64,000 nucleotides of DNA from Diacronema lutheri (taxonomy: Eukaryota > Haptophyta > Pavlovophyceae > Pavlovales > Pavlovaceae): the NCBI GenBank assembly GCA_019448385.1, contig JAGTXO010000005.1, forward strand, positions 744,001 through 808,000. Direction: 5' to 3'. Position 1 is the first letter of the stretch; every line of letters begins with the position of its first letter. The notes below the pieces were generated by a model that saw only the letters and a program-made list of their open reading frames with translations, ran no database searches and was not told where the DNA came from. This document shows, in pieces, positions 31,771 through 62,124 of this stretch. The translations under genes and the position numbers were made by a program.

Positions 31771-31797
<27 letters not shown>

Positions 31798-34486: not shown

Positions 34487-34491
34487 CGACC

Positions 34492-39815: not shown

Positions 39816-39848
<33 letters not shown>

Positions 39849-40822: not shown

Positions 40823-40860
<38 letters not shown>

Positions 40861-42700
40861 CGAGGCGTGCGCGGGGGCTTGGGGTGGGCTCCGGGTGCCG
40901 GCGCTGTGCCAGCGGCGGGCTTGGTTGACGCCGTCTCGCCGGGGCCCTTGCGCCTTGCGGCGCGAGCGTCGCGGAGGGGCGTCGGCTGCGCTGGCTCCGC
41001 GTCGGCGGTGGCGTGGGGCAGGCTCTTGTGGAGGGCGGAGCGCTCGCGCACGAGTCGGTTGCCAAGGCGGGCTGTCTGCGTGCCGTTGGGCTGCGCTTGG
41101 GCAGGTAGGACCTGCGGCCTCGGGGGCGGGCGGGTTTTCGTGTTGGGCCAGGCGGCAACGCGCACCGGCCGTGTTCGCGGCCGGCAGGCGGACGTCCGCA
41201 GCGGGGCGGAGAATGCGGGTGAAGCGCTTGCACGGGCGCGGTTCGCACCTGGCGGCCAGGCGATCACGAACCGTTGGGTCGCCCGGCTGTTTGGTGGAGC
41301 CGAGGGCAGCAAGGATAGCGAGCTTGGCCGCCTCATCGGTGACGAGCGGCACTGTTGCCCAGCTCTGTACCTCGAAGCCCTGGATGTGCAGGCGTCGGGG
41401 AAGTTCCCGGCAGCGTCGCCTGCGTCCGTCGAGAGGCGGACCGAAGTCGCGCCCGTGCCCCCGTTGGCGACACCGAGCTCTCGCTCGTTCACACCGGCCC
41501 GCCGACGCGGGCGCGTGGTGCGCGCGCGTTGGGTGCGTGTCTGCCTCGAGCAGCGTGCCCAGTCGCAGTGTGGGCGCGTGTCCGTCTGCCTCAAAACGCC
41601 ACGTGGAGGGGAAGGCGCGGGGCGGGCTCGCCGAGGAGGTGCCGCCGCTCGCTGCCACCCGGCGCGGGCTCGGGGCAGCCGTCTTCGGGTGCCGCGCTCT
41701 TCGCGCCATGCACGAACGTTCCGCCGCGCTCGCAGCGCGCGAGCGCACACACAGAGCGCGCGGCGACCCCGGCGGGGGCAGTGCGTCCCGGTGGCACTCG
41801 CGGGCGCGCGCCTGGCCTGGGCGCAGCTGGGCGCGTTGCCGCCCGCGCAGCGAGCCGCCCGCGCGCCTCGCCGCGCGCGCGCTTCGTCGCACGCGTGCGC
41901 CCTGCATGCACGCGCACAGCGCGCGGCGGCTCGGCGCAGTGCAAGGCAGAGCGTGCTGCAACGGTTGCGAGGGCGCGCACGCGCGGCGCGGCGCGCCCCT
42001 GTGTGGTCGCCTGCGCGCGGCGCGTGGTCCGGACGCAGCTCGGTGGCGTGATGCCGTTCGTGCAACACAGTGCGCGTGAGAGCCGCACGTGCACACCTGC
42101 AGTGCAACGCGGCATTGCGCGCGTTGCGTGGGCGGAGCGCGGCTGGATGTGCTTGAGGTCGCGCAGCATGCCGCGCGCCGCGCGCTGTGCGGCGCAGCGA
42201 GTCGGCCATGCCCCTGGTCCTCGTCTCCGGGGGGGGGGGGGGGGGGGGTGGTGGTGGCAACCAGGATCCGCCAGCGCGTGGTGGGCGCCGTCCAACTCCC
42301 AGCCAGGATGCGCCCCGTTCTTCCCCGACACTCTCCGTCCAAACCCGCCGCCCAGCCTGCCGCCGCACCCGCCGCCAACGCCGCCGCGCACCCATCCGCC
42401 GAGCTCACCTCGCGCGCGCTCGCGCTCACGCTGCGCGACGAGGCTGCGCAGGCCGGCGCGCGGCCGTGCAGAGCAGCGCAGGCCGGCGCGCGGCCGCGCG
42501 CGCGCGCTCACGTTGCGGCCGCGCAGCGAGCTTTCGCCGCGTCGCAGCCCCTCCGAGCAGCCACGATGCACGCCCCCGGAGGACGTTGGCCGCGCTCGGA
42601 GGCCGCGCTCGGGCGCGCAAAGAGAGGCGGCGCGGGCAAACGAGTAGGCTCGGCGCGCTGGCGGGTCCTGGTTGTGGGAGAGCGGGGCATTCTCCAGGGC
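40066..42700 (-). mobile_element. GC-rich stretch with possible LINE remnant
   Basis: On the minus strand a frame near 40.06-40.35 kb reads GGEAFNPGPARS, then ASANLGGMVDPERKAALLAV and LVRRKYVILLLL. This recalls the start of many non-LTR retrotransposon ORFs, where a 2A-like NPGP (40285-40296) precedes an endonuclease beginning with an asparagine strand, an R-rich helix and a hydrophobic strand. The match stops there: the expected QET and later motifs are missing. Further upstream (41.2-41.5 kb) the minus strand has another coding-like piece, FEVQSWATVPLVTDEAAKLA. A G run of 37 at 40824-40860 and another near 42230 interrupt the region. No reverse transcriptase was found, so the call is tentative. 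Confidence 0.25.
40824..40860. repeat. Poly-G tract, about 37 G
   Basis: Longest G run in the right half of the window, in the probably non-coding stretch between the USP and Fanzor genes. Confidence 0.85.
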
Positions 42701-42767
42701 ATCATGTAAATTCTCCCAAGTATCATCCGGGCCGCCATCCGGACACTGACGTGCCCACAGTCTGCAG

Positions 42768-45700
42768 ATGGAGGACTCCGTGAAGGACGCTTTGCCCGGC
42801 GGGCGGGGCGGCTCGGACAGTTTCTCGCTGGCCCTCAGCACCATTCTGTCGCCGGGAGATACCCACCCCCACGTGGTCCCATCCACTTGCCTCATCGCCC
42901 TGCTGCGTTACGCGGATTTCGGCACGAGCAGGGTTAGGGTGGGCGACACGGGGTGCTCGCAGCATGCGCTCAAGGTGGCGCTGCGCAACCTGCGCAAAGC
43001 ATGCGCGGATGCGGACCGGTTTGGGCAGGTGCTCGTGGTCGTGCTACCGCTCTGCCTCCGCGCGTCCAGCGGCCTCGTGCACTGGACGGCGGCGTACCTG
43101 CTCCTCGCGCCGCCCGCGCAGCGCGGCGCGCCGCCCGGCGCCGCGCTCGCCCTGCTCGCCGATTCGCGCACCTTGGGCAACGGCGAATCGGCGTACGCCA
43201 CGGCGGCCGGCGTGCTCATCAAGAAGCTTGCGCAGCGCATCGGCAGAACAGCGCCGCCCATCGATGCCTTCAAGGCGCCCCCGCAGAGTGGGGCCGCGTG
43301 TTGCTTCGCCGCGGCAACAGTCGCGGCCGAGGTCGTGGCGAGCGCATCGACGCTCTACGGCCGCCGCGCGAGTGTCCTTGTCGACATCAAGAAGGCTTTG
43401 GACGCGCGCCTCGCGCGCCTCACGACGGCCGCGTACGAGGAGACCCGCGCGCGCACGCTCCGCGCCGCCATCGGCGCTCTGCTCGGCGACCGCGCCAGGC
43501 GCTTCGGCCCGTTCACCCGCGAGGCCGCGCGGCTCGCCGAGGCCGCGCGGCTCGCCGAGGCGTGCGATGCCAGTGTCGGCGGATCCGCGCCCGACGGGCT
43601 GCTGCAGGCCGTCGAGGCGGCGCTGCGCGCGCCCGACGACCGCATCGCACGCACGGCCGCGCTCGACGCGCTCACGGGCGCTGCAGGCCGCGCGCTGTCG
43701 ACGGCGGCCAGGCCGCGCGGCGCGGCGGCGCCAAGGCCGCCGTCGCGAGCGCCACCGCCGCGTGCGCCGCAGCGGCGCGCCGCCTCGGCGTGGGGGCCCC
43801 GACCATTCAGCAGCCTCGGCGGGGGCGAGGGCGACGGGGACGATGGCGACGCCACCACCGCTGACGACGGGGAGGGCGCGGAGGACGGGGACGACGACCC
43901 CGCGGGCGCGGCGGCTGCGGCGGTGGCGACGGGCACGGCGGCGACGAGCGCGGTGGCGGCGGGCGCGGCGCCAACCTCGCCGGCGGCGGCGGACGGCGGT
44001 GGCTCGGCGCCGCTCGAACGCCGCTGCGTCTACACTGCGCCTGATGAGGGCGACGCGGACGCGCGCGTGTACGACGCCAAGGACCCCGAGCAGCTAAAAG
44101 CGGGCAGGGCGCGGCTACGGGCGAACAGCGGGCGCGCGCCCGCCGTGGTCGACACGCTTTTCGCGCACGCGACGGGCACGATCGTCACGCGGCAGCGCAC
44201 GGAGGGCGTGACCGGCGCGGGCATGCACCACCTCGCCGCCCCGACGCAGGGCGCGGGGTACGGTACCGTCGTGCGGGCCGAGCTGGGCGAGCCCGGCTTC
44301 GCGGGGACGACATGGCACATGACGTCGGGCGTGGAGAACCAGCCGCGCGCGGTACGAGCGGCCGCGCGCGCGTACGCGCACGACGGCTGGGGCGGCGTGT
44401 ACAATGCGCACGAGGACTTTGCCGCCTTCGAGGGCTTGCCGCGGCTCGCCGCGCCCGAATCGCTCGCGGCCATCGCCGGCGGGTCGGCGGACGCGGTGTT
44501 CTGCTGGCGGTCCGGCCGGTCCGTCATCGGCGAGGTGACGACGGTTCACTTCAATGGCGACCGCGCCGCCGCCATCGACCACGCGCGGGCGCTGCGCGTC
44601 AGGCCCGATTGGCGCTCGCAGCCCAGGATCTACGAGGCGGCGTGCGGCGCGGAGGGCACGGTGCTGCTCGTGTGGGTCGTGCCCGACCGTCACAAGAACC
44701 CGCGGCTGGACTGGGCGCCGATTCTCGTCGTGATCCACCTGCCCGCCGACCCCGACTGGCTCGCGCGCGCCACGCCGGCGATCGCGAAGGCGCGGCGCGA
44801 GGTCGAGGACGGACGCGCGCGCGCGGAGGCGCGCGGCGTGCCGCAGCACCTCGCCTACACGCTGAGCCCACGCTTCCGAGGCACCGCGCCGCGCGGAGCC
44901 GCGCGCGTGCCGCCGCGCCTCGGCGCGAGCGACGCGCGCGAGGCGCGCGCGCTCGCGGCGCTCGAGCCGGCGCTCATGTTCGCGCCGGCCTGGCGGCGCG
45001 CGGTGCGCGCGGCGAGCCGCGCCCCCGGCAGTGGCGCCGCGGCCGTCGAGCGCGCGCTCGCGCGCCTGCACAACGCGCTCGAGCCCGATGACGAGAGCGC
45101 GCCCGAGTCGACGCGCGTCGCGCCGCTCGCCGCCGCGCTCGAGCAGTCGGCGGGCTGGCCGGCGGGCACGGCGCGCATGGCGGCAAGCGTGACCAAGGGC
45201 CCCGGCGTCGGAGATGGCGCAGGTGGCGACGAAGTGACCAAAGTGGAGGAAACGGCGAAGACGAGCGGCGACGGCTGCACCGGCACGCCTCCTCTGCGCC
45301 CGGCCGCGCGCGCGGCCGGCGCGGCGGACGACGGAGGGGCGGCGGTCGTGGCGGGCGTCGAGGGCGAGCGCGACGCACTCGCCAAGACGGGTGCCGGCGG
45401 CTGCGACGACGACGCTCGCGAGCCGCTGTCGGCCGGCAAGCCCGGCGCACTCGCCGCCGCGGCGACCGTCGGGGGTCTCGGCGAGCTCGTCGGCAGCCTA
45501 TGCGCGTGGCTGGCGCGCGGCGCGGCTGGCGGCGCCATCGCGGCCATCTCCCCCGGGACGGCCGCGCGCGGAGCAAACGGCACGCCGCAGCGCGCCGAGC
45601 CGCCGGCCGCCGGCGATCCCGTCGCTCCGCACGCGCGCGTCGCCGCTGCGGCGCCCTTGGCGGGCAGCGCGGCGGCGCCGTCGTCGGCCGCGCGCGACGC

Positions 45701-48700
45701 GCAGCGCGGCGTCGCGGGAGTCGACGCGGCCGCGCACGCGCACGCGCGCGACGGCAGGCGGGCGGCACGGCGGATGCGCGAGCACGAGGGGGCGGTGCAC
45801 AGGGCCTTCCGCATGTCCCTCTGGCGCGACGCGACGTTTGTCGAGTTCGTTGAGAAGCTGCGCCCCGACGGCGGCGCGCAGCTGCTCGCGCGCGAGCCCA
45901 CGCGGCGCGCGGCGGCGGTGCTGTGCGAGCTCGCGCGCGGCCGCGACGGCGCGAGCGGCGCGGCCGGGCTGCTGCACGAGATGAGAGCCGCCGATGCGCG
46001 CGCGCGCGAGGCCGCCAAAGCGGCGGAGGCAGCGCGGCCTGCGCACGGGACGCTGCGCATCGTGGCAACCGTGGCGCTGGGCGGTGCGGTCTTCGCCGGC
46101 ATGTCAGCGCTGGTCGTTGCTTGCGCGGCGCGCACGGCGACCGGTGCGCTTTTTGGGGCCCGCCGCCCGCGGGCGGCCGCGCGCGGAGCCGACGACGCGC
46201 TCGGCACGCTGCAGCGCGCCGAGCCGCCGCCCGCCGACAAGGGCAAGCGCAGGCGCGCCAGAGCCAACGACGACCCCGTCGACGCGGCGCGCAAGGCCGT
46301 GGGCAAGGCGGAGGGCAACTGCCGCAAGGCAGCCCGCCGGCTGCACCTCGCTGCACTGGGCGAGGAGGAGGCGCAGCAGCGCGTGCTCGACGCCGAGGCG
46401 GCGGAGCAGCTGGCGCGCTCGCGCGAGCCGGCCGGCGGCTGGGTAGGCAGCGCGCGCGCGCGCGCGCGCGCGCGCCCCGCCGCGCGCGCGCCCGTCGATT
46501 GGCGTGCGCGCAGCGCAGAACGGCGCGCCAGCTCCGTCACCCGCGCGCCGCCGCGCCCGTGCCCCTCGCGCGCAGGGGCGCCCTGCGGACCTGCGGCTGC
46601 AACAGGCGCACTTTGGCATGCGCGAAGATGCCGACGCGGAAGTGCGCCGCGCGCACGAGGCGCTGCGCCGGGCGAGACAGGGTGTGGCGTGCGCCAAGGC
46701 CAGCGTGCGGCAGATGGAGGCGGCGTTGCTCAACGCGACGCGCTGCGCCACCGCGGTGCTCGCGCCGCGTGGCGTGCCGGAGGGTGACGAGCAGGCCGCG
46801 GCGAGAGAGCAGGCGGCGCTGGACCGGGAGGCGCCGCCGGCCGCGCAACGCGCGGCGCCGACGGCGCGCTCGCCCTCGGAGCCGCCGTCCGAGTGGGGCC
46901 CGCCAGCGGTCGGCCGGCGCCCGACGCCGCGTGCACTGTCGCACGCCGCGGGTCGCGGGGACGACAACCCGTTTGCGCCGCTCGCAACCGTCAGCGGCGA
47001 TTGGTCGCCCACGCCGAGCTCGCGCTCGCCGTCCTCGCCGCCGCGGCAGCCGCCGTCCGACCGCCGCAGCGCGCAGCGTCGCAGCGCGCGCGCGCGGCCG
47101 CCGAGGCCGACCGTTTCGCCCGAGGACGCGCTCGCAGCCGAGCGCCAGGCGCGCGCGCTGTCGGAGCAGGCGGAGCAGAGGCGCGCCAAAAAGGCCGCCG
47201 CCAAGGCCGCGCGCCGCGCCGCGCGCGCCGCCGACAAGCGGACGGCGCGCGTCGTCCACGCGTGCGTAAGCGCCGCCTTGCGGCGCGTCTGCACGAGCGT
47301 CGCCACGGGCACGCCGCTCGCCGTGCTCCGCGAGCGCGCCGAGGGGCCGCGCGCGCCGAAGCCCGCGCCCGCGCCGCCACGCCGCGCAGCGGACGGCGGC
47401 CGCGCGCTCCGCCACGCGCGCCGTGCGGCCGCCGCGGCGGCGGAGCGCGAGGCGGCGGTGGCGGCCGACGCCGACGAGCGGTTCGAGCGGCAGCCCTCCG
47501 CCGCCCGGTTCGACGGCGGCGATGGCGGCGGAGGCGGCCACGTCGAGGCGAGCGCGCGACCGCGCGCCGGCGAGGCCGGCGAGGCTGGCGCGCACGGCGC
47601 GCCTGGCGCAGCGGGGACCCCGGCGGCGTCGCTCGCGTCGCGCAGCCCGTGTGATGCGCGCCGCACGGCACGCCTCCCGCACGCACGCGCCGCAGCCACC
47701 TGCGCACGCAACGGCGGCTGGGGTGGCAACGTCGGCGGCGACGTGTGCGGCGGTTGTTTCGGCGGCGGCGGCGTCCGTCGCGACGCCTGCGGCGGCGGCG
47801 ACGCCACCTGCGGCTGCGGCGATGGCGGCGTCGGTGCTGGCGCTGGCGAGGCCCCTGCACACGGTGCGCCGGCGCGCGCGACGGCGTCGCGCTTGCTGCG
47901 CTTGCTCGGCGCGCCACGCGCCGTGCTCGGTGCGATGGCGCACGCCGCGGCCGTGTTGGCGCGCGGCGTGGCCGCAGCCGTCGCTGGCGTGCGCGCCGCC
48001 GCGCGCGCCGTGCGGCGCGCGCGCCGCCGAGCGCCTCGCGCGCGCCGCACGGCTGCGCGGCGGGCTCGCGGCCCGCCGATGCGCGACGTCGACGGCGCCC
48101 TGCGGCCCTCGCCGTCCTGGTTGCGCACACGCCTCGTCTGCGGCCGGCGCCTCGCGCCTCTGCGCCGCGCGGGCGCGCGCCCGCCGCCCGCACACGCCGC
48201 GCCGAGTTCCCGCGCGCGCGCTGCGCAACCCGACAGCGACGCGCCGGCGTGCGCGCCGCGGCGCTCGGCGCCTGTCGGTGCGCCGCCGCGCGCGCGTGGC
48301 CTGCGCGCGGCGCGCGCACGGCGCTTCCTCGACGTCGCCGGCCGCGCGGCGCGGAGCGCGCGCCTCGGCGCGCGCATCACGCGCCAGCGCACGCCGGGTT
48401 CGCCATCGGAGCCCTGCACGGCCGAGAGCGGCGACGGCGCGGGCGCCGGCGGCGTCGGCGCGGCGGCGCCTGGCGCGGCGACGATGCGCGCCACCGGCGC
48501 GCGCGCAGCGCGCGCTGCGGCGGCGGCGGTCGGTGGCGCCTCGCGTCTCGCGCGCCGCGCGATGGCAAGCGCCGCCGCCGCTGCCAACTCCATCGCCGGC
48601 GCTGCCGCCTCCACCGTCGCCGCCGCCGCCGTTGCCATCGGCGCGGCCGTCACGTCACCGGCGTTCGCCGCGGCGCGCGGCATGGCGGCCGCATGCGTCG

Positions 48701-51023
48701 CTGCCTGCGCCCGCCCCACCGCCGCGCAGGCGGCCGCGTCGCGCGCGCTCGGCGCGCTCTTCGTGCTCGTCGACGCGGCCGACGCGGCGGGCGACAGCGA
48801 CGCCGCGCTCGGCGCGCTCGCGGCCGCGGTCGACGCGACGGAGCTGCGCCCGCCGCCGGCCTTTTGGCGCGCGGGCCGCGCCGCGGCGTACGCACCGCGT
48901 CCGCCGCCCCTCGACTCGGCGCGGCCGCGCTACAACCGGCGCGCGCGCGCACCTAGCCCTCCCGTCGCGGCCGCGCGGCGCAATCTCGCGCGCGCGGTGC
49001 GCGAGCTCACGCGCGCCGCGCGCGCTGAGCGCGAGCGCGCGCCGGCGCCGCGCGGCGCGCGCGGCGGCGTGCTCCACGCGCTGCGCGCGTCGCTCCCCGT
49101 GCACGCGCGTGCCGCGCTCGGCACGGACGCGGAGCTGCGCGCGGACATCGCCGCGTTCGCGCGCGCGCGCCGCGAGCTGCACAGCCTCACCGACGCCGAG
49201 GTGGCGGCGCTCGCGCGCCCGGACGGGCCGCCGCTGCCCGTGCGGCTCGCGTGCACGGCGGTCGCGCGCGCGCGCGGCGTGACCGTGCTGCTCGACATCG
49301 TGCCGCGCGGCGGCGGCGCGCCCGAGCGGCTCGTGTGCCGCGCCCGTCGCCGCGGCGCCGCCACGCGCACGCCACGGCCGACAGCCGCCGTTATCGCGCG
49401 CGCGCCTTGCATAGCGGCGCGCGTTGGCCACACTGAGCCGGCGCGCGCGTGCGCGGGCGGATCGATCGGGGTCGCGCGCCTCCGTTCAGCGCGCCGCCGC
49501 TCTTGGCGTGGGGCGCGGCTCGACGTGCACACCCGCGAGCGGCTGGCCACACCGGTGCCAGGCCACGTCGTGGCCTGCGCCGCCGCCTCGGCCATCGGCG
49601 CGTGCGTCGCTCGCGCGCGGCTTGGGCTTGCACGGCTGGCGCGCGCGTGGCCCTGCGCCTCCGCTCCACTGGCCGCTGCTGCTGTCGCCTTCGCGCCTGC
49701 CGCCGACGGTGTTTTCTGCGCCCCGCTGGGCGCTCCTGCATCCGCCTTCGCGCCTGCCGCCGACGGTGTTTTCCCCGCCGCACTAGCCGCTGCTGCATCC
49801 GCCTTCGCGCCTGCCGCCGATTTTCCCGCCCCACTAGTTGCTCCTGCATTCGCCTCCGCGCCTGCCACCGACGGCGTTTTCCCCGCCCCACTAGCCGCTG
49901 CCGCTGCCGCGTCCGCGCCCGCCGCCGCGGGCGCGTCTTCCGCCCCACCAGCCATCGCCGCCGCGCCCGCCGCCAACGCGCGCACCGCCAACGTGCCCGT
50001 TGCCAACGAGGCTACCGCCACCGAACCAGCCGCCCTTGAGCTTCCCCTCCAACCCGCCAACTCGGCGCTGCTTGCGTGGGCGGGCGACGCGGCTGCGCGC
50101 CGGCTGGCCGCCGCCGCCGCGAGCGCCGGCCTCCCGCAGGCAGATGTGGAGCGCATCGCCAGCGGCGACATGCTCGCCTCAACCGTCGACGCGTGCTGCG
50201 AGGTCGTGCTGCGCGTGCACGGGCAGGCCGGCGGCGGGCATGTCTGCCACGTGCCGCTCGCCGCGCAACCCGCGGTGTTTCAGGACGACGCCGAGCGCGC
50301 CGCGCTGCTGCACCGCCTGCGCAGCGAGGCGACAACGCAGGCTGTCATCGGCGTGTGGAGCCCGTCGGACGAGCGCGGCGGCGCGGGCGGTGACGACGGC
50401 GCGCAGCTCGCCTCCGGCCATTTCACCGCGTTGCGCCTTGTGCGCGTCGCGCGCGCGGGCGAGCATCGCTACGACGCGGTGCTCGTCGACACGCTCGCGT
50501 CGCCCTGCAGGCAGGCGCTCATGCTCGCCAAGGCGATAACTGCCACGCTGCACGCGGCGGGTCTCGACATTTCGCGCGTGCGCCGCGCGCTGCTGCTCAA
50601 CGAGGCGGCGCAGCGTGGCGCGACGTGCGGCCTCGCGATAGTGGGCGCGCTCAACGACGCGCTCGCCGCGGCGGGCTGCTCGTCCGCGCCGCGCACGTTC
50701 AGCGTGGCGGACATGTACGCTGTCGGCGAGCGCCTCCGCGTCGCGCTGACCGGCGCGGCCAGCGATCGTGCGCCGGGCGGCGTCTGCGCGGTCACGAGCG
50801 CGGTGCGCGGCGGGGGCAGCCCCGATGGCGCCGAAACGCCGCCGCAGACGCGCGGCGCCAAGGCCGCCGCTGGCGTCACCGCCGCCGCCACCGCCGCCGC
50901 CACGCCGCCGCCGCCCGCGCTGGGCGCCGCCGCCGCCGCCACCGCCGCCGCCGCCGCTGCTGCCGCCGCCGTGGCCGCGCCGCCACCGCCGCCACCGCCG
51001 CCGCCGGCCGGCGACGCGGGCGA

Positions 51024-51099
<76 letters not shown>

Positions 51100-54000
51100 G
51101 CCGCGCGCACGTTCTTGAAGCTCGCGCCCAGGGCGCGCGCGGCCGCCTCGGCGCGTGAGGCGTTGCGCGCCGCGTGTGCGCGCGCGGACGCGGCGGCGTC
51201 GTCACACGCGTCGGCGCCGCACGCGCCCGCCGGTGCGCGCCGCCGGCGGCGCGCGGGCGCAGGCGAGCTGGCGCTCGCGGCTGCGCGCGCGCTCGCCTCG
51301 ACGGAGCACGGCGATTTGACGGACGACGCGCTCGAGGCCGCCGTCGAGCAGGAGCTGGGCGACGAGCGCGGCCAACTGCTGCTGTGCACGCGGGGCGCAG
51401 CGGCGCAAAGGCCCGCGCTTTGCCGGCTCCTGAAGCACGCGTGCGCGTCGGCGCGCGCGGCGAAGCGCGCGCAATTCACGGTGTTCGTCGTGCGCGCGGC
51501 CACGCGCGGCGAGCGGGGGGGCGCCGCCGCGAGGCGCGTGGACTCGGTGGTCGAGCTGTCGTGCGCGCTGCACGAAAAGGCGGGCGCGCTCGGCGGCCTC
51601 CAGAGCGTCTGTGTGCGTGGCTTTGCCCTCGAGCGCCGCCGGACACTCGACGGTGGCGCCGAGGCCGGCGCGTCCGCCATCGGCCAGGACGAGCAGGTCG
51701 AGGCAGAGGCGGGCGAGGCGTCCGTCGCCGGCGTGACGATGGCCAAGCAGCTGCGTCAGTTTGCCGAGCAAGCTGCCCGCGACGACGTGCTCTTCCGCGT
51801 CGCCGTGTCCGAGGCCGACGCCCACGCCCGGCTGGCGCGCGTTGCGGGTGACGATGTCGGCGCGTACAGCGTCGTGCTCGCAGTCGCCGGGCTCGTCTGG
51901 CTGGCCAAGGCCGACGAGGTTGCGCCGGCGGCCGCCCGGTCCGCCGCCGCGCCGCCCGCCGCCCCGCCTGCTGCCGCCACGTCCGCCGACGCCGAGCGCG
52001 ACGCCTCGCCTTCCGACCGCCTGCGCGCGCTGACGCTCGCCGTGCGAGTCGCGCTCGCGCGCGGCGTGCTGCGCCACCTCCTCGCCGACGCGTCGCCGGG
52101 CGCGTCCGCGACCGCTGGCGGTAGTTGCGCGACGCCCGTCGAGGCGGCCACGTCCGCCGCCGCGCCGCCCGCCACGGGCGTCGTGACGAGTGGCGTCGCG
52201 GCGGGCGCTGTGGCGGCCGCACCGGCTGCTGCGGGCGGTGCGACGGCGGGTGCATCGCCCATCACGCGGCCGGCGAAGCGCGCGCGGCGCACGCTCACCG
52301 CCGCTCCAGCCGCCTCGGCCGTTGCGGCCGCTGGAGGCGCACGCGCGGGCGCACGCGGCGCGGCCGGCGCGCCTCGCGCGCGCGCCGCGCGCGCGCCGGC
52401 CGAGTACGTCTGGCTTGCCATCGCGCGCCGGATGCTGGCGGCGCGACACGCGGCGGCCGCGGGCGGCGACTTTGTCGCGTCGTGCGTCGCCGCGATGCAG
52501 GCCGAGTACGGCGACGGCTGTGCCGTCGTCGTCGGCGACGCGCCTGATGACGCCTTGGTCGAGGCTGCGGCGGCGGCGCTGCTCGAGGGCAAGCACGCGG
52601 CGGTGAGCCTCGGCTGCGTCGACCGGCCGGCGGTGCTCGTCGTGCAGCGCGCCGTGGACGCGCCCACGTCGCGCGTGCACGGGTGGTGCGCGCACGCGGC
52701 GGGCGCCGCCGAGTTTGACGAGGGCGCCGCGCACGGCGTGTTCAACGCGATCGTCGAGCGCGCGTGGGCGCTGCGTCCGGACCCGGCTGACGGCAGCCCG
52801 CCGCCCACGCGCACGTGGGAGGTCGAGCAAATCGCTGGCGACGCGCCCGACCAGGCGGGCGTGGCCGCGCTGCGCGTGCTCTACGCGCTCGTCGCGGCGC
52901 ACGGCCGCTACCGCTCGGCCGCCGCGCTCTTTGGCGCGCTCGCGCAGCTGCACGCGCCCGACGCCGCCGGCGCGCGCGCGGAGGTCGTCGCGGCGGCGTG
53001 CGCGGTGCCGCACGGCGCGCGGCCGGGCGCCGCGCCGGCGGCCGCGCGGGACGACGCGAGGGAGCGCGCATGGGAGGGCGCTCAGATCGCCGCGCTCGCC
53101 GTCGGCGCGGACGCTGCGCGCAGGCGTGTCGCGCCCGTGCGCGCGCTCGTCGACGCGCTCGGCACGCCACCGACCTCGGCGATCACGGGCGGGCCGGCGG
53201 TCCGGCTCGCGGGCGCGGGCGACGGCGGCCACGGTGCACGGTGGGTGGGCGGGCAGGCGGCGACGCCCGCCGAGCAGCTGCCGAGGGAGCTGCTGCGCGC
53301 CTACCACGAGGCGGTGCTGTGCGTCACGCCCGGCAGCCTCCAGCTCGGCCCGGCGGCGCTCGACGCGGTCACGCGGCCGCGCGAAAACGACACGCTGGAA
53401 GGCCTCCTCGCGCGCGTCAGCTGGCAGTGCGGCGCGAGGGCGAGCACGTGCGCCATGCTCGCCACGTTTTCCGAGCAGGCGGGCACCGGCTCGCGCGTCG
53501 CGCTCAAGGCCCTCCGCACGAGCTCCGACCTGGCCGGGCTGACGGCGGCTGCGGTCGGGCAGCAGGCGCCGCAGACGCCGCCGCCGCCGCTGCTCGTGAT
53601 GCTCGGCCGCTGCCCCAGCCCGCTCGTCGGCGGCGGCCTCTTCCCGCCCGACCGCGCGACGGGCGAGCCGGCGGTGCACGCGGCGACGTCCGAGCTCGCC
53701 GTCGAGCTGCTGCGCGACGCGCGCGCGCTGGCCGGCACGGACGGGCGGCTCGTCGTGCTGTGCCTCGAGGCGTCCAACCCGCTCTGGTTCTGCCCCAAGG
53801 TGCGCGAGCTCGAGCTGCCGCGGACGCGGTCGGACGGCGTGCGCGCGTCCGGCTGCACCTGCCCTGCGACGTGCAGCGATGCGCGCGGCGCGGCGGGTGG
53901 CGCTGCCCGCGGCGCATCGACGCGGCCGGCGGCGCGCGCGATCAACAAGGCGGTGCTCGACCACTTCGTCGCGCTTTTCGGCCGCGAGGGCTTCGCGACC

Positions 54001-57000
54001 TTTGAGTTTGCGGGCGGCGGCGAGGCGAGCTGGCTGTGCGACAGCGCGGCCGGCACGACGACCGTCGCGGCGTGCGCGTCGCTGCCGCCGCGCATGGGCG
54101 ATGGGCAGCTGGCCATCCGGCGGCACACGCTCGGCACGGGCGCCGACGCGCCGGCGCACGCCGTCGTCTCGCTCCGCGTCGCGCACGTGAGCCACGCCAT
54201 CCGCCGCGCGGCGGACGACGGCGGCGCGCGCGCCGAGCGGATGGCGCGCGCCGCGCGCGCGTTTTGCGATGTGGCGGCCGCGCTGCGCGTCGACGCGATC
54301 CTGGCGGAGGTGCCCGAGGACCGCCCGACGGGCACGCCCTTCCTTGGCGGGCTGCTCGAGTTTTGGAACAAACGCCACGGGAGCTCGACGGCGCCAGCCA
54401 CGCTCGCGCTCGGAGACGTGCGCGAGGTGGCCAAGCGGACGGCCGACGCAGCGGCCGGCCGAGCGGACGAGGTCCCTGCGGCTGGCCGTCCGCAGGTCGC
54501 GGCGCGCGCGTGCGCTGGCGCGATTGGCGGCGGCGCGGGCGCGGCGGGCGCCTCGGACGCTGCGCCCCGTGCACTGGCGGGCGCGTCGGGTGCGCGCACG
54601 GACGGCGGCCCTGCCGACGCACCGCGCCAGCTGGAGAGCCGCTACGGCGAGGCGAGCAAGCTCGACCTACCCCAAGATTCCACTACGGGCTGCGTCCTCG
54701 ACGCTCGCGAGGCCCAGGACCGCGCGCGCGTGCCTGCTGCGCCCGACGGCACAGCGCTGCGCCGCGTGCTCGACGCCGTCGGCGCGGGCGCGCCCGCGCA
54801 GCGCAGCCCGCGCTGGCACGACGAGCGATGGGAGGAGGTCACGGGCAGCAAGGTTGGCGACGTCGTGAACGACAACGCCGGCGTCGCGCACGAGACGCTC
54901 ACCGACGAGTACGTGCACCGGCGGCGGCGCGAGGTGCGGACCAAGGCGACGACCGCGGGCATCCTCGGCGAGGCCGTCGCGCTGCGCAAGCTGGCGGCCG
55001 CGTACGGCATCACCGTCGTGTGCAACCTGCCGATGGTGCGTGCGGACCCGCACGACAAGAGCGCGCCGTTCGCCTTCTCGCCGGACGGGCTCGCCATCCT
55101 CCCCGAAGACAACGAGCAGGTCCTCGTCGAGGTGAAGACGCTCACCAAGGCGGACGCCAAGGCGCACGAGGACGGGCCGCCGCAGCCGCACCGCGATCAG
55201 CTGCAGCTCGGCATGCACGTCCTCGGCGTGCGCAAAGCGCTCTACGTGCAGTACCTCAGGCACGAGGACCGGATCGTCGTGCACGTCGTGACGCGCGGCG
55301 TCGGCTGGCTTGCATTCGCGCAGCCGAGGGTGCAGGCCTTCTGGGCGCGCGTCGTCGAGCGGCGCGCGCGGCTCGAGCGCGCGCGCGCCGACCACCCGGC
55401 TGCGAGCCGGCGGCACCGGCGGCAGCAGACGCCGGCCGGGCCGCCGCTCGTGCTCGCGCTGGACGGGCGCATCCCCGCCGCGCGCGCCGCCGCGCTGCAC
55501 GCCGTCGCGCACGGCACCGCGAGCGCGGCGGCGGTGGCGGCGACGGCGGCGACGGGCGACGCGACGGCGTTGCAAGACGCGATCGCGGCGCTGCGCGCGC
55601 CCGTCGGCAATGCGGCGATCGACAGCGCAGCGCGTGCGGAGCGCGCGGCCGTCGAGCGGGCGATCGAGTACCTCGGGCAGCCGGCAGGCGACGCCGCCGC
55701 CCGCGGCACGGCCGAGGCGGCCGAGGAGGAGAGGACGGTCGACGCCGACATCTGCGCGTTGCTGCACCAGCTCGGCGCGAGCGTGGCGCACGTGCACGTC
55801 GAGGACGCGGATTGCGTCACGCGTGAGCACTGGGGCGGGGCGGTGCTCGCTGCAGCGGGCGACCCGTCGAGCGCCCCCGCCATTTCGAGCGTCATCGTCG
55901 CGCACATCGTGCGGCTCGCCGGCTTTGGCGTCGAGCTCCCGCAGTCGATTCGCGTCGCCCCCAGCACGGCCGACTGGCACGAGGGCTGGCTCGACGTGCA
56001 GTGCGTGCTGCTGCGCACGCGCCGGCGCGGGCGGCGCGACGACGACTTTGTGGCCGTCGTCAGGCGCGGTGGGCGCTGGTTTGCGTGCGAGCCCGGCCGC
56101 GCGCGGCGGCTGCAGTGGCGGTCGGTCCTGCGCCGCGCGCGCGGCGGCGTCGACGGGACCGGCGAGGAGGCGTTCGCGGTCGTCTACGTGCGGCGCGGCG
56201 ACGCGGCCGGCGACGCGGCTGGCGACGCGCAGGCCGAACGGGCGCGCGGCGGGCGCGCGCGCAGGCGCACGCGCGGCGGCACGCGCAAGCGCAAGCGCGG
56301 CGCCTCCGCCGGGCTCGAGGCGGCCGCGCCCGCCGGCGCGCCGGCGGGCGCTGCTCACCGCCCGCCCGCCAGGCGTGCCACGGTCGCCGCGCGCACCACG
56401 CGCTCTGTGACCGACGCGCGGCACTCGGCGCCTGCCGCCACGGTTGCACCTGTCTTCGACTGGCGCGCCGGCCGCCCGCCCCCTGCCGCCGCCGCCGCCG
56501 CCAAGCGCGGCCAGGCGCTCGAGCCGGGGCAGTTCGCGCGGCCGCGTGGGCGCGCGCCATGGGGCAAGGTCTGGGACAGAGTCTCGGGTGCGTGGGCGGA
56601 CAAGCCGACTGGTGCTGCCGTCGCCGCCGCGCCGCCGCCGCTGCCGCCCGCCGCCGCGCCGCCGCCCGCCGCCGCGCCGCCGCCCACCGCCGCGCCGCCG
56701 CCCGCCGCCGCGCCGCCGCCCGCCGTCGCGCCGCCGCCCGCCGCCGCGCCGCCGCCGCCGCCGCCACCGGCGGCGCTCGGCCGCCGGCAGCACGTCGGCG
56801 CGGGCGGCAGCGCGGCGGGCCGGCGGCTCGCGGCCATCGCACGGCGGCAGCGCGGCGTGCGCGCGCCGCCGCCCGCCGCGCGCTTCCTCGCCACGCTGCC
56901 GCCACCGCCACGCGACGGCCTCGCGCGCACGAGCAAGCAGGCGCGCGCGAGGCGCAACGCGGACGGACGGCCGGCGCACGCGCGCGCGGCCAACGCGCGC

Positions 57001-60000
57001 GCCTTCTACCGCGGCGTGGAGCTCGGCGTGCACGCGACGCGCGCCATCGTCGACGCGCGCCACGCCGACCTGCCGCAGGCCGTCTTCGTGGCGGAGGCGC
57101 GGGCGATCGTCGCGCGCTCCGCCGGCGGCGGCGCGCTGCTCGCGCCGGACGACGTGCGCGACCTGTGCGACGCGCAGACGGACGCCGATCGCGCTGCGAT
57201 CTGGGCGTCGGTGGGCGCGCACGAGGCGACGCGCATCTTCGCGCTCGTCACGCGCAACGCGAGCTTGGCGGGCGCGGCGCTGCTCGTGCTGCACACGCCG
57301 GCGGGCGCGCCGGCGCGCGCGCTCGGGCTCGTGGCGACGCGCTCGCGCGCGCCGTCGACGGGCGCGCCGCGCGACGCGCACAGGGCGCTGGTGCAGCGGT
57401 TGGACGTGCTGATGGACGCGATCGCCGCGGCGCGAGGCGCGTCGCCGCTCGAGCTCGAACACGCGCTCGCGCCCGAGCCGCAGAGCGCGTGCAACGCGCG
57501 TGCGGCCGCGCTGCTCTGCCTGCAGGCCGTCGCGGACGCGAGCGGCCGTCCCGCCGCTGAGGACGCGCTGGCCGCGCTCGACGACGCGCGCGGCATCGAC
57601 CGGCACTGCCACGCCGTCCGGCAGCAGATCGAGGCGAAGCTCGCGTGGCGGCGCGCCGACGGCGCCGTCGGCGTTGACGGCGCCGACGGCGCGCCCGCGC
57701 TCGCGCCTGCCGCCGCACCGCCGGCGTGCGCGCCGGCGCACGCTGCCGGCGAGGCGGCGGTCGACCAGGCGATCGTCACGCGGGTGCGCGACGCGCTGCG
57801 CGCGTGGGCGACGACTGGCACCGCGCCCAGCGCGGCGGTGCTCGACGACGCCTGCGCCGCGTACACGGCGCGCGCACGCGCGCGCAAGGACGCGCGCACG
57901 GCGCTGGGCCCGACGCGCGCGGCCGAGCTGCTCGCCGCGGCCGCGCGCGGCGGAGCCGACGGGGCGGATGCCGCGCGCGCGCTGCTCGGCGGCACGCCGC
58001 GCCTGCTCGTCGTGCTCCTCTGCGTGCCCGTCGCCGCGCCGTCCGGCGAGCCGCCGCGCCCGGTCGGGCTGCTCGTCGCCGACCGGCCGACGGACGACTC
58101 GCGCCCGGCCGCGCTCGTGCGCTACGACTTTGCGCCGCTCGACGCGGACGTGGCCGTCGCGGTCGGCGCGCATGCCGTCGCGCTGGCCAGTGCGATCTGG
58201 CCGCTGCTCGCGGCCGAGGGGGAGCCGCGGCCATCGCCCGTCGTGCGCTCGCAGCCGCGCGGCGGCGACGATGGCGCGTGTGCGCTCGCAACGTTCGCGT
58301 GCCTCGACGCGCTGATGACCGCCAGCGTCGGCGCGCACGGCCTCGCGGGCGGCGCGGGCATGCTGCCCGCGCTGGTCGCGCGAGGCGCCGCGGCCGCCCA
58401 GCGCGAGCGGCAGCTGCGCGCGGCCGCCGAGAGGCTGGGCGGCACGGTCGCTGGGTGGCCGGACACGGGCGCGAGCGCGGCGGGCGCGAGCGTCGACGAG
58501 GAGGCGCGCACGTACGAGGTCGAGGCGGTCGTCGACGAGCGCCGCAAGGCGGGCAAGAAGGTGACGTTCCAGTTCCGGATCAGGTGGCGGGGCTACGACG
58601 AGAGCGCCGACACGTGGGAGCCTGAGGCCAACGTGAGCAGCGACCTCGTCGCCCAGTTCCGCAAGACGCGCGACGAGCAGAAGCGGCGCGCGGGCGGATC
58701 GGGCAGCGGCAGCGGCGGCGCGGGCGCGGCGTCGGCATTGGCGTCGGCGCCGCTTCGCGCGCACGGCGAGTCGGGCGCCGCGGGCAAGCGCGCCGCGGCG
58801 GGTGCCGCCGCGAGCGCGCGCGACGCCGCGGGCGCGCGCGCGCCGAGCGTTCCCCGCGCGCGCGGCGTCGAGCGCGCGCGCGTGGACGAGCCCGCTGCGC
58901 CGAGCGCGCGCGCCGCCGGCGGCGCGACGGCGCGCACGCGCGGCAGCGTGCTCCCGGGCTTCGTGGTCAAGCGCTCGACGCTCAACGCGGGGCCGCAGGC
59001 GGTGACGGCGCAGCCCGGTGCGCGGAAGGAGCTGCGGCGCATCGCGGCGGCCGTGCACAGGCTCACGACACAGGCGTACCGCGTCATCAACAAGGTGGTG
59101 CGCGACGAGGCTGCGGTGGCGAGCGCGCAGGCCGTCGGCGCGGCGTCGGGCGGCCCGTCGACCAGCGTGCACACGTCGACCACGATGGACAAGGGAACCG
59201 TCCGTGCGATCTTCTCGGCCATCGGCTGGCACAAGGACGAGAGCACGTACGGTGCAGCGCCCCGAGGCAAGCCCGCCGAGCAAGCCGCCGCGCAGACCAA
59301 GGCGGCGACGGCGCGCGCCGTCGGCGAGATGGCCGAGGGCGTCCAGCCCGTCTGCGCGGTGGGCCTCACGGAGATCCTCGAGGCGGAGGCGACGCAGGTG
59401 TCCACCGCGTGCCTGATGCATCCATCGCGCGTCGTGAACGGGCTGCTCCGCGACGTCGTCCGCGCGGCAGTCGAGCGCGACGAGGCGCTCGTCGCGCTGC
59501 CCGAGATGCAGCGAAACGCGCGCGTGCGCGAGCTGTGCGAGCGGCTGCTGCGCGGCGACGTGGAGGGCGCGCGCGTCGGCTGCCCCGCCGCGCTCGACCG
59601 CCACCTGCCCGACATGGTCCTCCACAAGATCGACTACAAGTGCACGCCCACGAAAAGGTGGAACTACGACCGGCACACGACGCGCTACTTCCTCGTGCAG
59701 ATCCGCACCCTGCAGCACGTGGCCGAGGGGCAGGCGCTGCTCTGCCGGCTCGCGCACATCCACACGCAGCTGACCGGACGGCCGCCGCGGTACAATGTGG
59801 CGCCGCTGCGCACGCACAATGTGCGCGCGAGGCGTGGCTGCCGCTGCCGCCGCCGAGCGCCCAAGCGCGCGCGCGCCGCCGCCGTGCGCGCCGCCCCGCG
59901 GCCAGGTTGGTCACGCGCCCGCGCGCTCGCGCGCCGCGCGCTGCGCGCAGGTGCCGCGCAACGTGCGCTTCGCCGCGAGCGCCATCTGGGTGACGCTTTC

Positions 60001-61675
60001 GGATGACGAGCGCAAGGAGCTGCGCGCGCGGCTCAAGGCGCTGGACCTGCGCGACCACGATGGCGAGCCGATCAAGTGGACAGGCACAAACGGCAACACC
60101 CCGCCGATGTCGGACGTGCGCGTCAGGTACGCGGTCTTTGCGACGCGCTTCGACATCTCCAACCGCGTCTTCGACTACGCCGGGCGCGAGCGGCCGCCGG
60201 CCGATCTGCCGTGGCACGCGCGGCGCTCGTGGGTTGGCCTCGCGCCGCTGCCGCGCGTGCCGCTCCCGGGCCGGCAGCCCGTCAAGTCGGTGGTGACAGA
60301 TGGCGTCGCCGTGCACGCCGTCGGGACCGTCCTCGTGCCGAAGGCGCAGGCGCCGGCCGGCGGCTCGGGCGTCCTGCACCGCTGGCGCCGGCCGGACGGG
60401 CGCATCGCCGTCGCGCTCGGCTCCGAGCTGCGGCGGGCGATCGACGTCGAGGCGGCGGTCGTCGTCGCGGCCGACCCGAACATGGGCAACATCACCACCT
60501 ACTCTGCGCACGTCGGGCGGGCGGCCGTCTGGCGGCAGTTCACGCAGCGCGCGCGCGCGCGCGCCGCGGGCTTTGCGCGCGAGACGGCCAAGACCAACGC
60601 GGCGCGGCGGCGCGTGCGCAAGGACGGGCGCGGCGAGGAGTTCAGCGTGGAGGCGGACGAGGCGCGGCTTGGCGAGGCGCACAGCGCCAAGGTGCTCGGC
60701 GAGGGCGAGTTCCACGCCTTCCACCGCGAGAGCGCGCGGGTGCGCGAGCGCGCCGCCGAGCACGTGTACGACGCGCCGGCGCGCCGGAAGGAGCGCTGGC
60801 GGCGCGACAGCGGCGGGCGGTCCAACGCGGCGCGCGTCGCCGAGGCGCTCATCGCGGCGCACTGTGTCGACGGCGTGACGCGCGACCGGCTGCTCGTGTG
60901 CGTGGGCAAGTGGCTGCGCGACCACAAGGGCGCGCAGCCCAAGGGCGCGCCGCCCGCCTTCCAGGTGGGGCTGCTGCGCGAGCTGCGGCGGCGCGGCGTC
61001 GCGGCCGTCTTCGTGCCCGAGCCGTACACGTCGATGCACTGCTCGATGCCGCGGCTCGCCAAGGGCGGCAGGCTGCAGCGCTGCGGCGCGGAGCTCGCGC
61101 AGAACCCGCGCCTGCCCGTGGCAAAGGGCGGCACGCGCACGGTGCACGCGCTCGTCATCTGCCCGGCGTGCAACGGCGGCAAGAAGCCCGTGCACCGCGA
61201 CTACAACGCCGCGCGCAACATCTTCTACGACGTGCACGACATGGCGGCGCACGCGGCCGGGCGCGACACCACGTCGACGCCTGAGCGCTTTGCCCTCGTG
61301 CTCGCCTGGTGGGCGCGCGGCGAGGTGTGGGAGCGTGAGGAGCGCATGGTGCACGGCGAGGGCGACGACTGCGACGACGAGTGCGACGGCGACGACGAGG
61401 GCGACGACGAGGGCGACGACGACGACGACGACGATGGCAGCGGCGACGGCGGCGGCGGCGAGGGCGACGGCGACGGCGACGGCGACGGAGGCGGCGGCGG
61501 CGACGACGACGATGACGGCGGGGGAGGCGGCGGCGGCGACGGCGGTGGCGACGACGGCGGCGGGCGCGGCGGCGGTGGCGGCGGCGGCTCTCGCGCCCGC
61601 ACCCCCGCCCGCGGAGCTGCCAGCGCCAGTGCCGGCGGCGGCAGCGCGCGCGGGCCGAAGCGCGGCCGGCGTTGA
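42768..61675 (+). CDS. Giant multidomain protein ending in a Fanzor/TnpB-like nuclease (about 6,204 residues)
   Basis: Exons 42768-46442, 46606-59820 and 59951-61675 join in phase 0 (TGG|GTAGGC..CAACAG and AAT|GTGCGC..GCGCAG). Order of parts by residue: Ulp1-like peptidase 30-200; possible degenerate nuclease 500-660; a transmembrane helix about 1095-1120 (RIVATVALGGAVFAGMSALV); Ala/Arg-rich coiled and disordered stretch to 2370; second Ulp1-like peptidase 2400-2600; poly-Ala; peptidase-like module 3200-3330; unknown folded region 3440-3830; YqaJ nuclease 3950-4150; peptidase-like region 4350-4430; proline repeat; two more peptidase-like modules 4690-5135; chromodomain about 5190-5250; Fanzor 5340-6095; Asp/Gly-rich tail. 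All recognised domains lie in one sense and connected frames, so the ORF is real despite its GC content. Self-cleavage by the peptidases is an attractive but untested idea. Confidence 0.8.
43070..43340 (+). other. Ulp1-like cysteine peptidase domain A (within giant protein)
   Basis: The domain shows the C48/Ulp1 order of catalytic residues: His in SGLVHWTAAYLLL (about residue 104), Asp in ALALLADSRTL (about 131), then Gln and Cys in APPQSGAACCFAAATVA (about 173 and 178). Spacing is tight, as in Ulp1-like domains of DNA transposons. Known relatives remove SUMO or cut similar folds, or process element proteins. It sits at the extreme N-terminus, where an autoprocessing enzyme could act first. 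Confidence 0.65.
49680..49950 (+). repeat. Coding repeat of an Ala/Pro/Phe decapeptide
   Basis: At least four imperfect repeats of a unit reading roughly AFAPAADGVF-PAPLAA are encoded here (about 45-60 bases each), forming a flexible linker just before peptidase domain B. Confidence 0.75.
50370..50690 (+). other. Ulp1-like cysteine peptidase domain B (within giant protein)
   Basis: His in ASGHFTALRLVRV (about residue 2496), Asp in YDAVLVDTLASP (about 2519), Gln and Cys in NEAAQRGATCGLAIVGALND (about 2560 and 2565). This is the best Ulp1/C48 match in the protein, including the TCGL box equivalent to DCGV. The preceding 300 residues contain AFAPAADGVF repeats. Confidence 0.75.
51010..51110 (+). 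repeat. GCC trinucleotide repeat encoding poly-alanine
   Basis: About 30 successive GCC codons encode poly-Ala between peptidase domain B and the next region. Length is probably variable between individuals or subject to assembly error. Frame is kept because the unit is one codon. Confidence 0.9.
52440..52900 (+). other. Peptidase-like module C, probably inactive (within giant protein)
   Basis: The layout mimics Ulp1-like domains: EGKHAAVSLGCVDRPAVLVV in the His-strand position, then WEVEQIAGDAPDQAGVAALR in the Gln/Cys position. Here the expected Cys is replaced (DQAGVAAL), and no convincing catalytic triad can be drawn. Followed by a helical segment like that after domains A and B. Calling it a diverged duplicate is inference. 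Confidence 0.35.
54795..55390 (+). other. YqaJ-type PD-(D/E)XK exonuclease domain (within giant protein)
   Basis: The family order is complete: SPRWHDERWEEVTGSKVGDV (entry motif), TTAGILGEAVALRKLA with the first Glu, FSPDGLAILP with the Asp, VLVEVKTL with the E-x-K pair, and HRDQLQLGMHVLG as the Q motif. YqaJ/lambda-exonuclease-like enzymes resect DNA ends to leave 3' single strands for recombination and are frequent in phages, giant viruses and some eukaryotic mobile elements. The active-site residues are all present, so activity is plausible. Confidence 0.85.
55960..56220 (+). other. Josephin/USP-like beta region (within giant protein)
   Basis: DDDFVAVVRRGGRWFACEPG followed by RRLQWRSVLRRA and EEAFAVVYVRRG resembles the His-containing strands of Josephin or USP peptidases (HFVAL..dg.WY..DS), but the His is replaced by Asp. 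A cysteine-box partner is not clear; upstream VDADICALLHQLGASVAH may contribute. Tentative. Confidence 0.3.
56630..56775 (+). repeat. Coding repeat of AAAPPP units
   Basis: About seven 18-base units encode alternating Ala and Pro triplets, a stiff linker between the nuclease/peptidase-like half and the C-terminal modules of the giant protein. Confidence 0.85.
57000..58340 (+). other. Peptidase-like modules D and E (within giant protein)
   Basis: Two successive blocks share a layout with domains A-C: RIFALVTRNASLAGAALLVL then PEPQSACNARAAALLCLQAV (D, Gln-x-x-Cys present), and RLLVVLLCVPVAAPS then RSQPRGGDDGACALATFACL (E, Gln and DGAC present). In both, the His strand is not convincing, so activity is uncertain. 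Each is followed by a helix like the one after the Cys of domain B. Confidence 0.35.
58500..58680 (+). other. Chromodomain (within giant protein)
   Basis: A textbook chromodomain: TYEVEAVVDERRKAGKKV, then TFQFRIRWRGYDESADTWEP and EANVSSDLVAQFRK. The aromatic cage positions (Y near the start, W of RIRWRGY and W of DTWEP) are all kept, so it should bind methylated lysine, probably H3K9 or H3K27. It lies about 100 residues before the Fanzor N-terminus. Chromodomains on integrases and transposases steer elements to heterochromatin. Confidence 0.93.
58950..61350 (+). other. Fanzor/TnpB-like RNA-guided nuclease domain (within giant protein)
   Basis: The N-terminal part has LRRIAAAVHRLTTQAYRVIN, similar to the first helices of TnpB/Fanzor. 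After the second intron come the RuvC parts: RuvC-I VVVAADPNMGNITTY (Asp about residue 5805), RuvC-II AVFVPEPYTSMHC (Glu about 5987) and RuvC-III HRDYNAARNIF (Asp about 6047). Between II and III lies the zinc insert with cysteines in TSMHC, LQRC and CPAC; the usual second Cys of the first knuckle is moved. Fanzors are eukaryotic TnpB relatives shown to cut DNA guided by an RNA encoded beside the gene. All catalytic acids are present, so it looks active. It could be confused with IS605-type TnpB, but the spliced gene argues for Fanzor. Confidence 0.88.
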
Positions 61676-62084
61676 CGCACGGCCGAGCCGCGCAGCGGTC
61701 GACGCTTTGCGGGCTCTGCCCAGGTCGCGCGCGGCTGGCGACGCGTGCCGCGCGCGGCACGACCGTGCACGCCGCCACCCGTGGCCGAGCGCGCCGCACC
61801 AGCCGGCCCGCTCCAACCGCCGTGCGGATCACGGACGCTCGCTACGGCTCGTCGGCGCGCGTCACCTGCGCCGGCGGCCACGGCGCCGTCTGCTCCGGCC
61901 TCGTCGCGAGCAGCCCGACCGCTGCTCGCCGCCCGCACGCCGCCGCAGCAACGCTGCGCGTCGTGCTCCCCCGCTCGCCAAACGCGAAGAGCTCCCTCAC
62001 AAGGACGTCCTTCCGAACGGCCCGCGCTGCACTCGGGGCGCGATCGTGCCCCTGATCGGATTTGGCTTGACCATCTATACGTGG
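61676..62084. ncRNA. Candidate location of a guide RNA downstream of the Fanzor gene
   Basis: TnpB and Fanzor guide RNAs usually overlap or follow the 3' end of the nuclease gene. This 409-base spacer, which ends at the convergent TFIIIC gene, is the only non-coding DNA in that position. It is GC-rich with several possible hairpins (for example around GTGCCGCGCGCGGCAC at 61744) but no structure can be asserted by eye, and no element end was recognised. Confidence 0.25.
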
Positions 62085-62088
62085 TCAT

Positions 62089-62124
<36 letters not shown>

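Follow-up and report, generated by a model that had tools for sequence, protein, structure and literature searches.

Three long open frames at this locus had been read in the initial annotation as one gene whose protein ends in a Fanzor nuclease, which raises the question of whether a single giant polypeptide is encoded here and to what kind of genetic unit it belongs. The window (the whole stretch of DNA that was analysed, 64,000 nucleotides, C82:744001-808000) was studied together with its genome, of which 43,492,796 bases in 103 contigs were searched.

Gene structure and predicted domains

All three frames are present on the forward strand (42750-46787, 46447-60006 and 59774-61675), as are the two in-phase GT-AG introns that had been proposed to join them, and the three exons add up to a conceptual gene of 6,204 codons. 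The predicted parts are as follows, with the basis of each in brackets.

42768..46442, +, predicted exon 1 of the giant gene (frame, third-position G+C, splice phase)
46443..46605, +, proposed intron 1, 163 bp, GT-AG (sequence)
46606..59820, +, predicted exon 2, 4,405 open codons (frame, stop counts)
59821..59950, +, candidate intron 2, GT-AG, 130 bp here and 128 bp in copies c71, c9 and c27 (copy comparison)
59951..61675, +, predicted exon 3, Fanzor catalytic half followed by an acidic and glycine-rich tail (PF07282, motif positions)

The frame 46447-60006 runs for 4,519 codons without a stop. Within the 4,405 codons of the exon 2 span there are 0 stops, against 8 to 45 in each of the other five frames, and at that density the probability of the span being open by chance is about 2e-11; the long middle frame is not a chance frame. 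Third-position G+C tracks the expected frame in all three exons.

The two junctions differ in strength. The proposed intron 2 has comparative support across the copies described below, as its length is 130 bp in the window and in c29 and 128 bp in c71, c9 and c27, with donor and acceptor strings identical in all five copies compared. This intron splits the Fanzor, so exons 2 and 3 should be joined if a whole Fanzor is to be made. The candidate intron 1 is present as the same 163-bp version in c71, c29 and c9 and, being invariant there, gains no comparative support; the first two frames overlap over 46447-46787, where alternative GT-AG pairs could join them. The predicted exon 1-exon 2 junction is therefore the weaker of the two.

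Seven domains or domain-like units were assigned to the predicted protein in addition to the exon 3 catalytic half.

42873..43349, +, Ulp1-like peptidase unit 1 (H, D, Q...C motif read by eye)
50179..50676, +, Ulp1-like unit 2 (motif read by eye; the string also occurs in the 21.6-kb copy on C27)
52465..52905, +, Ulp1-like unit 3, apparently degenerate and without a cysteine at the expected place (by eye)
54790..55383, +, RecE/YqaJ (lambda-exonuclease-like) nuclease domain (phrog_434, TIGR03033, YqaJ)
57835..58326, +, Ulp1-like unit 4 (motif read by eye)
58510..58680, +, chromodomain of HP1/CDY type (PF00385)
58942..59820, +, presumed Fanzor N-terminal half in the chromodomain's exon (position; FVVKRSTLN at 58960)

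Profile matches support three components of the predicted gene, namely the RecE/YqaJ nuclease, the HP1-type chromodomain and the TnpB/Fanzor C-terminal domain. The chromodomain matches PF00385 above the Pfam cut-off (E 5.7e-12), and its best matches in a sequence search of solved structures are CDYL, CDY1 and HP1. The residues that we take to be its aromatic cage appear to be kept. The nuclease domain matches the RecE-like exonuclease PHROG phrog_434 (E 2.1e-15) and lies below the cut-offs of TIGR03033 (26.1 of 68 bits, 7.9e-6) and of Pfam YqaJ (15.8 of 22 bits, rising to 21.3 of 22 bits, 3.6e-4, when searched as a segment).

The Fanzor domain passes the cut-off of TNB PF07282 at 60983-61222 (E 2e-6, 28.3 bits against 26.3), and NCBIfam guided_TnpB is far under its own (13.8 of 100 bits). 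Its motif reads D-X184-TS-XX-C4-X8-RD, beginning with a first D at 60473 (in the third frame, P0003, the residues are D234, TS419-420, C423, C437, C463, C466 and RD475-476), and fits the published Fanzor pattern D-X(125,275)-[TS][TS]-XX-C4-X(5,50)-RD (PMC3627910, cited here, like the other papers, from excerpts of its text). The RuvC1 motif reads DPN and not DPG, which the excerpts of PMC10711439 describe as near-exclusive in Fanzors; the D and P are kept and the G is replaced. No profile match of its own was found for the presumed N-terminal half (58942..59820). The solved-structure sequence search of the third frame gave as its best match a Cas12f1 at an unconvincing E of 0.3, and those of the nuclease and of two Ulp1-like pieces gave nothing convincing.

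The peptidase assignments proposed earlier fared differently from the chromodomain, Fanzor and YqaJ-type nuclease, all three of which are borne out by profiles. The Ulp1 pattern, which we take to be His-Asp-Gln-Cys, is visible by eye in units 1 and 2, yet no Pfam peptidase match was found in the giant protein, either whole or in the segment-wise search that raised the YqaJ score. The four Ulp1-like pieces aligned poorly, and these alignments do not prove kinship. The self-cleaving polyprotein suggested earlier would draw on these peptidase parts, which no profile supports. The sole profile-supported peptidase is the ubiquitin carboxyl-terminal hydrolase (UCH) domain of a neighbouring frame (37918..39411). 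Long stretches of P0001 and P0002 gave no family match in the profile scans.

A giant interspersed element and its copies

The giant gene belongs to an interspersed element of about 31 kb with about 200 copies, a setting that the initial annotation had not recognised and that turns the question from an odd gene to the working of a giant transposon. The following parts were annotated outside the gene.

31102..62080, +, whole mobile element, 30,979 bp in this copy by coordinates (copy alignment)
31102..31142, +, left terminus, starting CTATATAGGGCGCGGTCC (copy alignment)
33045..33916, no strand, palindrome of about 870 bp inside the element, 92.5% self-complementary
34267..36824, +, PIF1-family helicase gene in two frames, linked by either an intron or a frame change (PF05970, Pif1_2B)
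37918..39411, +, frame with the UCH domain (PF00443 at E 4.3e-8, scoring 33.5 bits where 23.9 is the cut-off)
61676..62080, +, non-coding right end, candidate guide RNA site (right-terminus 19-mer)

Three copies (c71, c29 and c9) align with the window at both borders, 31102 and 62080, and differ from it in their flanks. They differ from the window copy in 0.29%, 0.12% and 1.76% of aligned bases respectively, and all three have 56 bp more near the left end. The c9 copy has internal deletions, among them deletions in the helicase region, and measures about 29.1 kb. Genome-wide, the right-terminus 19-mer has 196 exact matches; the other signatures, counted with at most one mismatch, gave 199 left ends, 231 Fanzor, 153 exon-1 and 146 helicase matches, and 204 matches to a 28-mer for an 18-bp palindrome that lies just inside the left end and is absent from the window copy. 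Reversed controls gave 0. The element makes up roughly 10-15% of the genome if full lengths of 21.6 or 31 kb are assumed. The repeat section of the genome paper, in the excerpts of PMC8379373, names LTR and LINE repeats and not a 31-kb element.

Pairing of exact matches, among the matches listed on contigs C1-C39, placed a Fanzor match 17.8-19.1 kb downstream of 61 of the 71 exon-1 matches and left 10 without one; 36 of the 97 Fanzor matches had no exact exon-1 match, and partners can be hidden by mismatched copies or contig ends. Subtraction of end coordinates also gives shorter forms, of about 21.6 and 26 kb, each occurring several times. In the 21.6-kb copy on C27 (c27), about 2.4 kb of different DNA stands in place of 39819-50048 of the window copy, a stretch that takes in the giant gene's first 7.3 kb, and no match to exon 1 is present in this copy. 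Its long frame, which bears the downstream domains, is likewise free of stops, at 4,088 codons from stop to stop, and has a different N-terminus. The joining of Fanzor with chromodomain and RecE/YqaJ nuclease in a single frame is well supported and recurs behind another N-terminus. The exact nuclease string is missing from c27, and the exact helicase Walker-B string from both c9 and c27.

Between the window copy and c9, c71 and c29, dN/dS is 1.04, 1.54 and 1.17 respectively; against c27, exon 2 gives 0.71 and exon 3 gives 3.9, the latter with one silent change. Substitutions between copies are not concentrated at third positions, and with dN/dS near or above 1 a comparison of this depth reveals no selection at the protein level. 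The codons of c71, c29 and c9 that align without gaps contain no stop, and neither do those of c27 from 50050 on; among the 216 changes to c9, 0 stops were observed against 3.7 expected, which is mildly unexpected (P 0.02). Exon indels between the window and c9 are multiples of three, singly or, for one neighbouring pair (29 and 4 bp), in sum, and a 2-bp indel at 59865 falls in intron 2. The spacing from exon 1 to the Fanzor fits an open frame, with an intron of 130 or 128 bp, in 53 of 61 cases among the matches listed and does not in 8, with a P of 0.0003 that assumes independent copies, which these are not. Counted as distinct lengths, 7 of 34 are out of frame (P 0.08), and triplet repeats favour spacing lengths in threes. 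All five copies compared carry the strings of the Fanzor motif and of the chromodomain.

Two host frames flank the element and converge on it. The frame to its left (30158-31087, forward strand) ends at 31087, and a TFIIIC Tau95-like gene (62085-63998, reverse strand, PF09734, 6.9e-25) ends at 62085, with 4 bases between it and the right end. The exact right-end string occurs in the window at 62080 only. A relic of the left end, about 0.7 kb long and with pieces 93-95% identical, lies on the reverse strand at 18243-18954 and contains the terminal motif repeated in tandem, in units of 31 bp.

Termini and probable kinship to Helitrons

Twenty further copies, picked for a fully matching right end and counted by eye, begin with TATATA or a near variant, followed by GGCGCGG or [CG]GGCGCGG; a C precedes the TATATA-type start in 16 of them. 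Their right end reads CATCTATAC, the 3' end being CTATAC, and the Helitron1 ends (5'-TC and CTRR-3') are not seen at the termini. Target duplication was assessed in 18 copies, two of the twenty having been dropped because they end at a contig end. One has a 13-bp flank repeat and the other 17 share at most 6 bp, compared with a longest shared run of 10 bp among 306 mismatched flank pairs, six of which reach at least 8 bp. No terminal inverted repeat was found at the element ends, and no asymmetric terminal repeats of Helitron2 type were found by eye. A hairpin was seen by eye at the right end, and the terminal folds have z values of -1.37, -0.19 and -0.57. The fold of the non-coding right end hardly beats its shuffles (z -1.13; 12 of 100 fold as well), and Rfam searches at the gathering threshold and tRNA searches were empty. 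In five of the twenty copies, short repeats (about 60-120 bp, of two kinds) that end in or near GTTAGT lie directly left of the left end.

The helicase gene is well recognised by PF05970 (E 4.2e-14 and 1.8e-24) and Pif1_2B (6.2e-13). Its product shares with Helitrons the PIF1 type, and the element shares with them the lack of terminal inverted repeats and of regular target duplication; no Rep (HUH) endonuclease fused to the helicase was found in the element frames scanned. Pfam detected no transposase or recombinase family in the giant protein or the 19 other element frames scanned, nor Helitron_like_N in the element frames scanned; Pfam and NCBIfam together gave no transposase and no HUH family there, and a scan for HUH motif patterns gave no convincing Rep. 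In PHROGs the Fanzor part weakly matches phrog_506, labelled transposase (E 0.15). The solved-structure sequence search of the N-terminal ~270 residues of the helicase gave nothing convincing.

In the genome as a whole, searched in six frames with introns ignored, Helitron_like_N has a single, partial match (73-163 of 191 positions), at C63. The Y1 transposase family has no match in this genome and matches in 5 of 14 control genomes. Residues 289-367 of the helicase (P0004) are 56% identical over 81 columns (E 5e-9) to that locus of the Helitron Rep fragment (L072, C63:30001-40000), the similarity lying downstream of the Rep match. This shared linker suggests that the helicase derives from a Helitron RepHel protein in which the Rep part was replaced by another domain. 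A long repeat-rich frame follows at about 8.3 kb of the same locus.

Possible mode of spread and relation to known systems

We favour, with a probability of about 0.5, a giant element derived from Helitrons, without a recognisable Rep of its own, whose spread would be aided by Fanzor cutting, resection and PIF1-driven copying. The kinship of the helicase, the lack of terminal inverted repeats, the flank repeat in only 1 of 18 copies and the left ends at TATATA all argue for such a derivation, whereas the lack of a Rep in the element, the non-canonical termini, dN/dS near 1, the DPN motif and the lack of a guide RNA fold weaken it. Movement would be as single-stranded DNA or by a rolling circle; Rep would act in trans or be a protein as yet unrecognised, and insertion would be into TATA-containing sites, mostly without target duplication. 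The presence of Fanzor, nuclease and PIF1 together suggests a second, break-and-copy step. In this step the Fanzor, with a guide RNA transcribed out of the right end and on into the flanking DNA, may cut the empty matching site, the RecE/YqaJ nuclease may resect the break and the PIF1 helicase may drive the extensive DNA synthesis that copying 31 kb requires. The chromodomain could keep the complex on methylated chromatin, and the peptidase parts might process the polyprotein or free repair proteins of SUMO or ubiquitin. The copies, their ends, the domains and the frame are seen in the sequence, from which the enzymatic activities, guide RNA, chromatin targeting and processing are all inferred. 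A stricter version strikes us as quite improbable: a transposase-free element that would spread by RNA-guided cut and copy, with one polyprotein as homing and copying machine, in which breaks by a chromatin-targeted Fanzor would be resected by the fused RecE and PIF1 would drive break-induced replication over 31 kb.

That the locus holds two or three separate genes, namely exon 1, the long middle frame and a Fanzor read from its own start, is in our judgement rather unlikely. The copies compared do not vary at intron 1, and the loss of exon 1 from c27, where the long frame opens with a different N-terminus, indicates that exon 1 is a detachable module; however, the Fanzor N-terminal half shares one uninterrupted frame with the chromodomain and nuclease (4,405 codons, and 4,088 in c27), and the aligned codons of all four copies (c27 from 50050) are free of stops. 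A transposase or recombinase of another class could also lie hidden among the at least 2,000 residues of the giant protein that match no family, which would make the element autonomous. Much of P0001 and P0002 would leave room for such an enzyme and the near-identical copies point to recent movement, yet the Pfam scans of the giant protein and 19 other frames were negative, and we hold this reading to be doubtful.

The frame may instead be an old passenger on ends mobilised by a Helitron-type enzyme, its proteins having no role. The dN/dS near 1 between copies, the recurrence of shorter copies of about 21.6 and 26 kb and the out-of-frame spacing in 8 of 61 copies among the matches listed are all consistent with this, whereas the stop-free exon codons (0 stops where about 3.7 were expected in the c9 comparison, P 0.02) and the Fanzor motif and chromodomain strings kept in five of five copies make it unlikely. 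YqaJ and UCH genes are also found in large DNA viruses. So are Fanzors, according to the excerpts of PMC3627910, but an endogenous virus of the haptophyte is barely credible here, as the profile scans made gave no capsid, polymerase or packaging family and the scans of viral contigs (with exon 3, the nuclease, the helicase N-terminus, and the chromodomain with the Fanzor N-half) found no relatives.

To our knowledge this element is unusually large for one bearing a Fanzor. The CRe elements of Chlamydomonas are much shorter than 31 kb. CRe-1, 2 and 3 are Helitron2 elements that carry Fanzors, and Fanzors have been captured by Helitron, Mariner, Sola, MuDR and IS4-like elements (PMC3627910, excerpts), with Crypton and hAT added in those of PMC10711439. 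The initial statement that Fanzors stand alone or beside a transposase agrees with both sources and with the excerpts of PMC10432273. The present element resembles CRe-1, 2 and 3 in being algal, bearing a Fanzor, having no transposase of its own reported, being presumably mobilised by Helitrons and lacking target duplications in intact-ended copies (PMC3627910); in contrast, it measures 31 kb, keeps a PIF1 helicase, carries the Fanzor as the tail of a 6,204-codon gene that includes a nuclease and a chromodomain, and has ends that are no close match to the pattern in print.

A PIF1-type helicase likewise occurs alongside a cysteine peptidase and an accessory nuclease in those Helitrons and Helentrons that have acquired further domains (RPA, OTU protease, AP endonuclease; PMC6431247, excerpts), whereas here there is no recognisable Rep domain, the nuclease is of another class and a Fanzor is present. 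The C-terminal motif, zinc finger and RD are shared with the stand-alone Fanzor1 SPu-1 (PMC3627910), which differs in lacking the N-terminally fused chromodomain and giant protein and in having DPG for DPN. Like the TnpB of IS200/IS605, for which a break-and-copy role has been proposed, as it has, as a possibility, for Fanzor, whose biological roles remain unknown (PMC10432273, excerpts), the Fanzor lies beside one end of its element and would serve break-and-copy maintenance; the system is, however, eukaryotic and giant, with its own resection-type nuclease and helicase and a guide RNA that is a candidate.

A Fanzor fused to a chromodomain or to RecE/YqaJ was found neither in the excerpts of PMC3627910 and PMC10711439 nor in the open-licence literature searched, where no paper joins Fanzor with YqaJ or joins PIF1, YqaJ and a transposable element; Fanzor, haptophyte and transposon co-occur there in a CRISPR review. 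We see here a giant Fanzor-bearing element related to Helitrons, in which the fusion is new. The Fanzor would be fused to a nuclease that resects ends and a domain that reads histones, inside an element that accounts for roughly 10-15% of the genome of a culturable alga. If true, RNA-guided cutting would be linked to resection and copying in one molecule and the break-and-copy model would become testable.

Many contigs start or end at or near the right terminus of the element among the matches listed (starts in C1, C5, C6, C10, C12, C26 and C29; ends in C3, C8, C14 and C32), and these are probably assembly breaks. The left terminus lies at few contig ends among the matches listed (C32, C49 and perhaps C69). 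A telomeric role, which the contigs ending at the right end had prompted, was rejected as the main reading because the window copy and many others among those listed are internal and TTAGGG telomere-type arrays occur at the ends of other contigs (C15, C29 and C30 among the 100 of 212 matches listed). Short TTAGGG arrays, interior or near the ends, were also found in C16, C17 and C21 among the same 100 of 212.
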